A stretch of 51,908 nt of DNA. Source: Thermoplasmata archaeon (GTDB lineage: Archaea > Thermoplasmatota > Thermoplasmata > Thermoplasmatales > Thermoplasmataceae). Below the pieces are notes generated by a model that ran no database searches, was not told the DNA's origin, and was given only the letters and a program-made list of their open reading frames with translations. Numbering within the stretch: position 1 is the first letter of the stretch; every line of letters begins with the position of its first letter. Positions 38,448-47,479 of this stretch are shown piece by piece. The stretch is from positions 1 to 51,908 of the forward strand of contig JAKAPZ010000004.1 of assembly GCA_021822985.1 (NCBI GenBank), read 5' to 3'. The position numbers and the translations under genes are program-made.

Positions 38448-39329
38448 TCACTTGAAACGTGGCCCGTATTTTGAGTACATTTCCCTCAGGGTCTCATCAT
38501 CAATATGTGTATATATCTCAGTGGTTCCAATGCTGGAGTGGCCCAGGAGTCTCTGAATGAATCTTATATCTCCGCCATTTTTCAGTATCGTGGTTGCAAA
38601 GGTATGCCTGAGCGTGTGCGGAGTCACTTTTCTTCTTATTCCTGCTTCCCGGGCAAGATTCTTTATCATTCTCTCCACACTGACGGTGCTGTATTTTCCC
38701 TTCTTCCTGCTCACAAAGAGAAATTCGCTGCTTCTTCCCTGTTCTATCCTCCATCCTATGTAGTCTGTCAGGATTCCTGAGACGGATTCCGGTATGAGAA
38801 CAATTCTTTCCTTATCCCCCTTGCCATTTTCTATTTTTATGGAGCCTGTTGTCAGATCTACTGAATCAACCTTCAGAGAGCAGATTTCGCTCACCCTCAT
38901 TCCCGTATGTATGAGAAGGTTGACCATTGAAAGCAGAGTGATATCCCTGCTGCTTGCTTCAAGGAGTTTTTCAATTTCAGAATTGTTGAGATATACAGGT
39001 ATCTTCCTTGTTCTTCTGGGGGCCACAAGATTTGGTGGAGGTGACATTCCAAGTGTCCTGTACATGCATCTCGCTGCCTTGATTGCCAAATACTGGCTGT
39101 TCTTTGAATACTTCTTCTCAGTTGCGAGATAGAATTTGTATTTTTCTATGTCTTTTTCAGTGCATTCCGATGGAGTCTTTCCGGTGAACTGAAGGAAGAG
39201 GGATGACAGGAACAGATACTGCTTTACAGTGGCCTGGCTCCTCCTTTCAGAAATAAGTTTCTTCCTCATTGTTTCGAGATCAGCTTCCGGGGATGATTCC
39301 ATTTTATTCATAATATGTGAAGTAAGCAT
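38448..39329 (-). CDS. xerA: Tyrosine recombinase XerA
   Basis: HTGMRVSEICSL, TPHTLRHTFATTILKNGGDIRFIQRLLGHSSIGTTEIYTHI. Confidence 0.93.
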   Translation of the reverse strand: MLTSHIMNKMESSPEADLETMRKKLISERRSQATVKQYLFLSSLFLQFTGKTPSECTEKDIEKYKFYLATEKKYSKNSQYLAIKAARCMYRTLGMSPPPNLVAPRRTRKIPVYLNNSEIEKLLEASSRDITLLSMVNLLIHTGMRVSEICSLKVDSVDLTTGSIKIENGKGDKERIVLIPESVSGILTDYIGWRIEQGRSSEFLFVSRKKGKYSTVSVERMIKNLAREAGIRRKVTPHTLRHTFATTILKNGGDIRFIQRLLGHSSIGTTEIYTHIDDETLREMYSKYGPRFK

Positions 39330-41000: not shown

Positions 41001-41074
41001 CTTTTAGAATTGCAGAACTGTATTTATTTTTTCCATTATAATATGGGAAGAACTTCAAAACCCGAAAATAGGTG

Positions 41075-42217
41075 TCATGAAAGAAGTTTTGTTGACTTTG
41101 ATATCATTGCAATATTCCCTATAACTCTTTCCATGTCTTCATGCGTGAACTCATGTGCTTTCTTTGATCTTCTCTCCATATTCTTCAGCTTTTTTTCCCT
41201 GAGTGATTCGAACTTTTTCTCCTCAATGAATGCCTGATTCTTTGCAAGCATGTTGTATATGATCACAGCAAGTTTCCTTGCCATAGCTATCAGTGATCTG
41301 TTTTTTCCTATTCTCTTCTTCAACTTCATGTATGATTTCCTGAACATGGGAGAAAGCTTGATGAGTGTGTGGATGGAATTCACTATGAAGAATCTCAATA
41401 CAGAAGGGCCCATTTTGGTTATCTTTCCATACGATTCAACAGATCCTGACTGATCAATCCTTGGCACCAGGCCCGTGTATGATGAAAAATGATCTGCATC
41501 AGGGAATCTTGTTATATCACCTATCTCAGAATATATGCCAAGTGCAGTGTAATAGTCTATGCCAGGTACGGACATGAGTATTTTCACCTCAGCAATATCC
41601 CTTCCCATGGATGCCATCTGATCCTGGACTTTCCCGATCCTTTCAACAAGATTGCTGTATTGTCCCATCATATCCCCAAGTACAAATTTATCTGATTCTG
41701 CCAGTGATCGTGATTGATCAAGTATCTTTTCAAGTGAATGCTTCCCGAATATGTCTGATGCAGTTATAATTATGCCATTCCTTGCAAGAAGTGCATGAAC
41801 CCTGTTCTTCAGTGCAGTCATGTCCTCACCAAGCGATCTCCTGTATCTTATCATGGTTCTGAGGTCATCTATCTCCTTTGTGGGAAGATAGGATTCAGGA
41901 AGTTCACCCATTCTCAATAGTTTTGCAAGATTCCTTGCATCATTCCTGTCAGTCTTCTTTGTTGATCTGAAGATGATCCTGAGGGCCTTCGGATTCGCAA
42001 GATGTATCCTGAAGCCATTATCCCTCAGCAATATTGCAACGTATTTTCCTGTGGTGGATGATTCAACTGCAATCTCTGCATCTTTTGGGTATTTTTCCAT
42101 GAAACTGTTCCAGTTTTCTTCTGTATTGTTCATCTTGTATTCTTCCACTATGTTTCCATCTCCATCTGTCACGCAGATGGATTCACTAAGTTTATGCGCA
42201 TCAATTCCTATTATCAT
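41075..42217 (-). CDS. IS110-family transposase (DEDD recombinase)
   Basis: GIDAHKLSESICVTD, KKTDRNDARNLAKLL, C-terminal transposase_20-like SVPGIDYYTALGIYSEIGDITRF. Confidence 0.95.
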   Translation of the reverse strand: MIIGIDAHKLSESICVTDGDGNIVEEYKMNNTEENWNSFMEKYPKDAEIAVESSTTGKYVAILLRDNGFRIHLANPKALRIIFRSTKKTDRNDARNLAKLLRMGELPESYLPTKEIDDLRTMIRYRRSLGEDMTALKNRVHALLARNGIIITASDIFGKHSLEKILDQSRSLAESDKFVLGDMMGQYSNLVERIGKVQDQMASMGRDIAEVKILMSVPGIDYYTALGIYSEIGDITRFPDADHFSSYTGLVPRIDQSGSVESYGKITKMGPSVLRFFIVNSIHTLIKLSPMFRKSYMKLKKRIGKNRSLIAMARKLAVIIYNMLAKNQAFIEEKKFESLREKKLKNMERRSKKAHEFTHEDMERVIGNIAMISKSTKLLS

Positions 42218-42400
42218 TCTGCCACCTCACGTGGTAATTCCGGGAAATATATTGGCCGGTAACACACTACTATCCGTCTCTTTCGAGGCATGGTGTCGGT
42301 CCGTAAACTGTCAACCTATGATACGGGTTCGAAACCCAAGGAACAGATCGACAGCCTTTCCCGGACCCGTACTCCACACGTTATGGAATACGATCAAAAA
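42218..42400 (-). ncRNA. Candidate bridge RNA / seekRNA of the IS110 element
   Basis: Two structured modules: nested stems GGTCCG/CGGACC, CTGTC/GACAG and hairpin GGGTT-TCG-AACCC; second stem with a GAAA-capped CTC/GAG hairpin; internal-loop segments match the element ends and flank (see findings). Confidence 0.65.
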
Positions 42401-42465
42401 ACTTCTTTCATAGTAGTGAACAGAGGAGGCTTTAAAGCAACAGATATAAAATGGTATAAATAGTT

Positions 42466-42484: not shown

Positions 42485-42739
42485 ATGGAAAAGAAAACTA
42501 AAGTTGGGCCAAAAGGCCAGGTAGTCATACCTAAGGAGATCAGGGATAAAATTGGCATAAAGGAATACTCTGAAGTTATAGTGGATGTTTTCGATGATTC
42601 AGTAATTATAAGGAAACTGAAACCAGAATCTGTTTCATATGTTGATTATTATAGCACAACTTATTCCAGGAAGCTTAAAAAGAGAGTGGACATTAAAAAA
42701 ATCACTGAGGAACAGTATGAAAGGAACATATTACATTGA
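42485..42739 (+). CDS. vapB: AbrB/SpoVT-type antitoxin (VapB-like)
   Basis: KVGPKGQVVIPKEIRDKIGIKEYSEVIVDVFDDSVIIRK. Confidence 0.88.
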   Translation: MEKKTKVGPKGQVVIPKEIRDKIGIKEYSEVIVDVFDDSVIIRKLKPESVSYVDYYSTTYSRKLKKRVDIKKITEEQYERNILH

Positions 42740-43133
42740 CTCAAATGTTTTCCTGTATCCGGTTTTATACGAAGATCTGGAAGAATCTGAAATCGCAAAG
42801 AAAATACTCGCACAAATCGAGAGCAAGGATATACAGGCTTACACCTCAACTTTGACCTGGGATGAGGTTGCTTATGTTAGTGAAAGATTGCTGGGCAGAA
42901 CCGATTCTGTTGAAGTGAGTAAAAAGTTCATTAATTTCCCCTTCCTTCGTTTCATACCTATGGATGATGAAATAATGAGAAGAAGCCAGGTAATCAGAGA
43001 GAAATATCATTTAAAACCAAGAGACTCAATTCATCTATCATCCGCAATCGAACGAAATATCAATGAGATCATCACTGATGACGCGGATTTTGATGGAATA
43101 AAAGAAATAAAAAGAATTCCTTTAAAATCATGA
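42717..43133 (+). CDS. vapC: PIN-domain toxin (VapC-like)
   Basis: YYIDSNVFLYPVL, ...RDSIHLSSAIERNINEIITDDADFDGI; ATG 42717 overlaps the antitoxin. Confidence 0.88.
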   Translation: MKGTYYIDSNVFLYPVLYEDLEESEIAKKILAQIESKDIQAYTSTLTWDEVAYVSERLLGRTDSVEVSKKFINFPFLRFIPMDDEIMRRSQVIREKYHLKPRDSIHLSSAIERNINEIITDDADFDGIKEIKRIPLKS

Positions 43134-47154: not shown

Positions 47155-47479
47155 GTGGAGAATGCCCGGAGTAAGCCCCCTTCTGTTACCCTGCATTGCA
47201 GGCTGGCAGCATTCGACTAATGGCCTTTCAGCCTTCGTCCTACCCGATCCTCCGGGTGGCATCATCGGATCCGTTTGGACTTTCTCCAGCCAGGGCGGCT
47301 GTCCCATCGCCACAATGAAAATGTCATCCCTGCGGAATCATCCTGCTTCAAGGGGCGTATCATTTCTTTTGCCGTAGCCTTCCCTCTCGGGAAATGTGCT
47401 TCTGCTCAATGGCCTCCACCTCAGGAGGGGGGACTTTCCTCACTCCTAAGAGCGTGAGCTGCCCTCGGGCTTTCTCCAC
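47155..47479 (-). ncRNA. rnpB: RNase P RNA
   Basis: Minus strand GTGGAGAAAGCCCGAGGGCAGCTCACGCTCTTAGGAGTGAGGAAAGTCCCCCC ... AACAGAAGGGGGCTTACTCCGGGCATTCTCCAC; conserved GAGGAAAGTCC and ACAGAA..GGGGGCTTA; P1 ends GTGGAGAA/TTCTCCAC pair. Confidence 0.95.

Follow-up and report, generated by a model that had tools for sequence, protein, structure and literature searches.

RNA-guided recombination by IS110 elements, the two-loop RNA that directs it and the location of this RNA are established (PMC11208160, PMC11208158, PMC11187229). Elements of the IS1111 group have extensions of 7 and 3 bp and the reversed order of guides (PMC11187229). Exceptions to the rule on RNA location have been noted, IS1111 elements are abundant in archaea (PMC11187229), and the use of such RNAs by archaeal IS110 and IS1111 elements is stated or implied (PMC11187229, PMC11208160). 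Here we describe an IS110-family element in a stretch of 51,908 nucleotides from a Thermoplasmata archaeon (contig JAKAPZ010000004.1; the whole stretch is called the window below). Judged from sequence comparison, minus-strand positions 42395-42254 very probably encode the bridge RNA (seekRNA) of the IS110 recombinase that lies directly downstream. By analogy with the solved IS621 system, the RNA would be transcribed and bound by the recombinase, loop 2 would pair with the junction that the two ends form in the excised circle, and cleavage and strand exchange at the core dinucleotide, which is CT in most of the clade, would recombine target and donor with no duplication of the target.

The RNA is located on the minus strand at the left end of the element, directly upstream of the transposase. 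A covariance model was built from seven close relatives, whose transposases are 59-73% identical and which have the non-coding region and the ends in common. In the window it matches 142 positions, the RNA core (42254..42395, minus strand), with 173.5 bits. The fold starts with a 5' stem-loop, GTATTCC...GGAGTAC (42369..42391), where 7 of 7 pairs of helix 1 are changed on both sides across relatives. Next comes the putative target-binding module (42298..42367, helices 2-4, with compensatory changes), consisting of a GGTCCG/CGGACC outer stem, a CTGTC/GACAG inner stem, an internal loop and the GGGTTTCGAACCC hairpin. The last part is the putative donor-binding module (42262..42296, helices 5-6), an ACAC/GTGT stem with a CTC-GAAA-GAG hairpin on top; all these features, as well as the guides below, are on the minus strand.

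In general the fold is well conserved among relatives. The alignment of the seven relatives keeps 96.3% of the pairs and has 7 pairs changed on both sides; it was not fitted to the model, although one of its own sequences served to write the structure. Among 53 distinct RNAs, double (compensatory) changes are found in 28 of 31 pairs. Cells changed on both sides number 351, whereas shuffled controls give 109 and slid ones 30-60; this alignment was, however, fitted to the model and therefore leans to the structure. Model matches are present in 23 of the 117 genomes of the order, mostly adjoining IS110 transposases, and the RNA is upstream wherever the transposase is present; RNA searches across the class and the phylum added just two genomes, both of the class. 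None of the curated Rfam families matches at its gathering score. At a permissive threshold Rfam gives weak matches to mir-645 and bxd_5, which we regard as chance, and nothing relevant. At its own loci the model also matches the other strand with 15-20 bits; these hits mirror the hairpins and were discarded. Four RNA matches, L085, L086 (G397:C20, C2), L062 and L067, have no IS110 frame directly downstream; these may be decayed copies or non-autonomous elements.

Loop 1 would contain the target guides. The left target guide, TCTGTTC (42341..42347), is identical to the left flank at 42418-42424, while the right target guide, ATAGGT (42314..42319), is the reverse complement of the right junction at 41068-41073, and both show covariation in the clade to which the element belongs (the window clade). 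For 11 elements of this clade the left guide has 42 matches to the left flank against 29.3 expected in a fixed register (p=3e-4), and when one-base shifts are allowed, comparing the seven bases before the core with swapped flanks of the same 11 elements, the p-value is 5e-5. The signal of the left guide is at its maximum in the register aligned to the core. For the right guide (the 3' side of loop 1) there are 41 matches to the reverse complement of the right flank in 7 elements, against 30.7 expected (p=5e-4). With near-duplicates removed the p-values are 1e-4 for the left and 0.002 for the right guide. The clearest right target guide is that of L012, where CCTTGTGTGC is found on both sides, 10 contiguous nucleotides including CC. 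In the window clade the guides have the IS110 order, with the bottom-strand pairing 5' and the top-strand pairing 3'; the reversed order gives nothing convincing in this clade (24 uncorrected tests, lowest p 0.022).

Loop 2 would carry the donor guides. The left donor guide, GACACC (42292..42297), is identical to the right end at 41071-41076, and homologous guides covary with the corresponding end. The right donor guide, ATAGTAGTG (42265..42273), is the reverse complement of the left end at 42410-42418. In the relatives, guide and end change together as GACAT/ATGTC, GACAC/GTGTC, GATTT/AAATC and GACCT/AGGTC, and on the other side of loop 2 ATAGAAG goes with the end CATAGAAG and ATAGGAG with the end CATAGGAG. 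This covariation of loop 2 was read off a table, not from a permutation test. Further, the right donor guide of the window reads AGTAGTG, against AGTAGAG in relatives, and the left end of the element is CACTACTATG; with the changed base, the match to that end is again unbroken over 9 bases. In three relatives (L004, L005, L008) the left end is much alike, yet their donor guides do not carry this change.

The chance that all four guide matches of the window fall within 5 nt of the junctions is estimated at 2e-12, but this is a rough, post hoc figure that is inflated by the selection of matches. The real evidence for the guides is the family-level tests, which are independent of the choice of matches in the window. 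In agreement with these tests, a sequence-only reading of this region had proposed a bridge RNA with target guides in module 1 and donor guides in module 2, and had named covariation of the loops with flanks and ends over homologous copies as the check. Fold, both module assignments and the outcome of the check are all in its favour, and its 16 named stretches could each be read back at their positions. One detail needs amending: it gave the arm at 42262-42267 as ACAC, while the sequence there is ACACAC, of which 42262-42265 is the pairing part.

The transposase (41075..42217, minus strand) is an IS110 DEDD recombinase of 380 aa with an intact frame. It contains PF01548 and PF02371, has the RuvC-like DEDD domain and the Tnp domain with the catalytic serine, and matches NCBIfam NF033542, 'IS110 family RNA-guided transposase', with 233 bits at a cutoff of 140. 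Among structures it matches ISCro4 (PDB 9t56) and IS621 (8wt6), to which it is only distantly related (41-46 bits). In the alignment to these two sequences D6, E52, D90, D93 and S257 correspond to the catalytic residues, by this comparison intact; the residue numbers were counted by hand on the alignment. Related transposases are found in 61 of the 117 genomes of the order. A protein search of genome contigs gave one distant Micrarchaeota relative as its sole match, and a search of viral contigs found no relatives.

The whole element is about 1.35 kb (41072..42417, minus strand), with the order left end, bridge RNA, transposase and right end, where the final bases of the right end overlap the stop codon of the transposase. 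As a unit it is supported by the ends conserved in copies at unrelated sites and by a syntenic site without the element in two genomes, G056 and G052. Read directly, the left subterminal inverted repeat ATGAAAGAAGTTTT (42398..42411) and the right one AAAACTTCTTTCAT (41077..41090) form a perfect 14-bp pair (42411-42398 / 41090-41077). The right junction has the core dinucleotide CT (41070..41071), and GACAC[CT] is found at every right junction in the window clade. The left junction dinucleotide (42417..42418) is CA in the window and [CT] in most relatives, and the ends of the close relatives read [CT]ACT(ACT)ATGAAAGAAGTTTTTTGAT ... CTTTCATGACAC[CT]. A single full copy is present in the genome that holds the window, which measures 1.41 Mb and is 81% complete. 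In G056 and G052, two sister-species genomes of the same genus with flanks 85-90% identical, the epimerase gene adjoins the MazE/PIN gene pair. These empty sites have no sign of target duplication, but the short intergenic alignment is too divergent to define the exact core. By comparison with these two element-free sister genomes, the element is mobile.

Relics are found at an orthologous site (L063 in G056:C55, L081 in G052:C5) and consist of a left end and half an RNA joined straight to the right flank (ACACCTTTTGAGC); the right flank of the L063 relic still fits its right target guide.

The window clade has a larger sister clade (group 2), where most full-length transposases are about 42-47% identical to that of the window. 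Here too a homologous RNA precedes the gene, yet the two ends have changed places: the left end is [AG]ATGTCATGAAAAAAGTT and the right end AACTTTTTTCATAGA[AG], with extensions outside the repeats of 7 and 3 bp when the core is counted. In this clade the 3' side of loop 1 corresponds to the left flank (25 elements) and the 5' side to the reverse complement of the right flank (16 elements), each with p<5e-5. Group 2 was initially read in the IS110 guide order, but the suggestive left-flank matches fail a permutation test (p=0.05 and 0.15; 0.999 for the right side) and that reading was dropped. The transposase tree places the two clades as sisters with a single switch between them, with support of 81/90 (window clade) and 95/96. 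At L059 with L079 (G069:C3, ~651640-651975), and also in G072:C58, a window-type and a sister-clade element stand head to head, with abutting left ends (CATGACATCTACTATG).

Ends and RNA are homologous in the two clades and differ only in how they are oriented to each other, so the simplest reading of the opposite guide order would be that the cassette of RNA and gene was inverted once between the inverted repeats. That one such inversion turned an IS1111-type into an IS110-type guide order in one archaeal lineage, both orientations being functional as the RNA would act in trans, is a proposal for which we see about an even chance. Somewhat doubtful, though possible, is that the opposite order arose by independent rearrangement, for instance if the RNA had moved from downstream to upstream separately in each clade, with no single inversion. 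Distant archaeal IS110 elements of the same order have a long non-coding region downstream, indicating that relocation did occur at some time. However, the two clades are homologous in RNA, end sequences and gene order and differ only in which end has GTGTCATG versus CTACTATG or CTTCTATG, and the tree needs one switch between sisters, albeit with a support for the window clade of merely 81/90. In L032, L047, L049 and L051, which are such distant archaeal IS110 elements, the conserved region reaches about 260 nt downstream of the gene, a layout like that of IS1111.

Several points weigh against a working bridge RNA in the window. With a single full copy in the genome, the window's own guides are not comparable over several sites. 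The left core is CA instead of CT, and the right target guide matches only 4 of the 8 scored bases beyond CC. The left-guide matches of L008 and L012 are weak, and the sets of flanks, 11 on the left and 7 on the right, are small and hand-curated, which is the main weakness of the target-guide tests. Finally, expression of the window RNA and activity of the element are predictions by analogy.

The single copy, the CA core and the partial fit of the right guide to its flank would also suit a decayed, inactive element whose guides merely record a past insertion. This is unlikely: the frame of 380 aa is intact, all aligned catalytic residues are present, and the change in the right donor guide, unique to the window copy, fits its unusual left end. 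Least probable by far is that the hairpins are a cis-acting leader or attenuator of transposase expression, with the transposase itself reading the target and the guide-like matches coincidental; the RNA is indeed immediately upstream of the transposase start, but a leader predicts no coupling of a loop with the host flank. In fact the flanks covary with loop 1 on both its sides in the window clade, as they do, with the order reversed, in the sister clade, and loop 2 covaries with the element ends.

Some other features of the window should be mentioned. Overlapping genes for a MazE-type antitoxin and a PIN-domain protein (42485-43133, plus strand) start about 65 bp from the insertion and are divergent from the element. 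A tyrosine recombinase gene (Phage_integrase; 38448-39329, minus strand) is located about 1.7 kb past the right end. The window also contains an archaeal RNase P RNA (47160-47474, minus strand, 176.7 bits), so the genome is archaeal.

Bridge RNAs are under development as programmable tools for DNA insertion, and this archaeal family offers dozens of naturally reprogrammed guides. Further, sister clades with homologous RNAs and opposite guide polarity are natural material on the relation between the IS110 and IS1111 arrangements, where published work goes only as far as noting the reversed order. If true, the inversion would offer a simple account of how the guide order came to be reversed between the two known groups.

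The sequence-only reading had considered a programmable recombinase RNA in a Thermoplasmatales-like archaeon a new case. This holds for the variant but not in principle, as the use of such RNAs by archaeal IS110 and IS1111 elements is already stated or implied (PMC11187229, PMC11208160). The 14-bp repeats, the empty sites, the CA left core and the opposite orientation of the sister-clade cassette go beyond that reading. What is new is an RNA family absent from Rfam, the mix of long repeats, upstream RNA and IS110 order, and a sister clade of opposite polarity; in the open-access literature, the scope of our search (subscription papers and preprints fell outside it), we found no description of the family, the mix of features or the clade.

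Because RNA-guided IS110 elements are already known, the element is a variant and not a new mechanism: it combines an upstream RNA and the IS110 guide order with a 14-bp repeat typical of IS1111. Like IS621 and ISCro4 (PMC11208160, PMC11208158; PDB 8wt6, 9t56), it has a recombinase with DEDD and Tnp domains, an RNA in the left end with a 5' stem-loop and two internal-loop modules, target then donor, an equal strand logic of the guides and, in most of the window clade, a CT core. The differences are its subterminal inverted repeats of 14 bp, against 2-3 bp in these elements, and a longer right-guide match in some relatives (L012). It shares an upstream RNA and a bottom-strand match 5' of the top-strand match with ISEc21, an element of IS110 type, but the IS110-type elements described there are without long subterminal repeats (PMC11187229). 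With the IS1111 elements and their seekRNA (PMC11187229) it shares the long subterminal inverted repeats and the asymmetric extensions. However, its RNA is upstream while theirs is downstream, and the guide order of the window clade is that of IS110; the extensions of 7 and 3 bp together with the IS1111 guide order are found in the sister clade, and not in the window clade.
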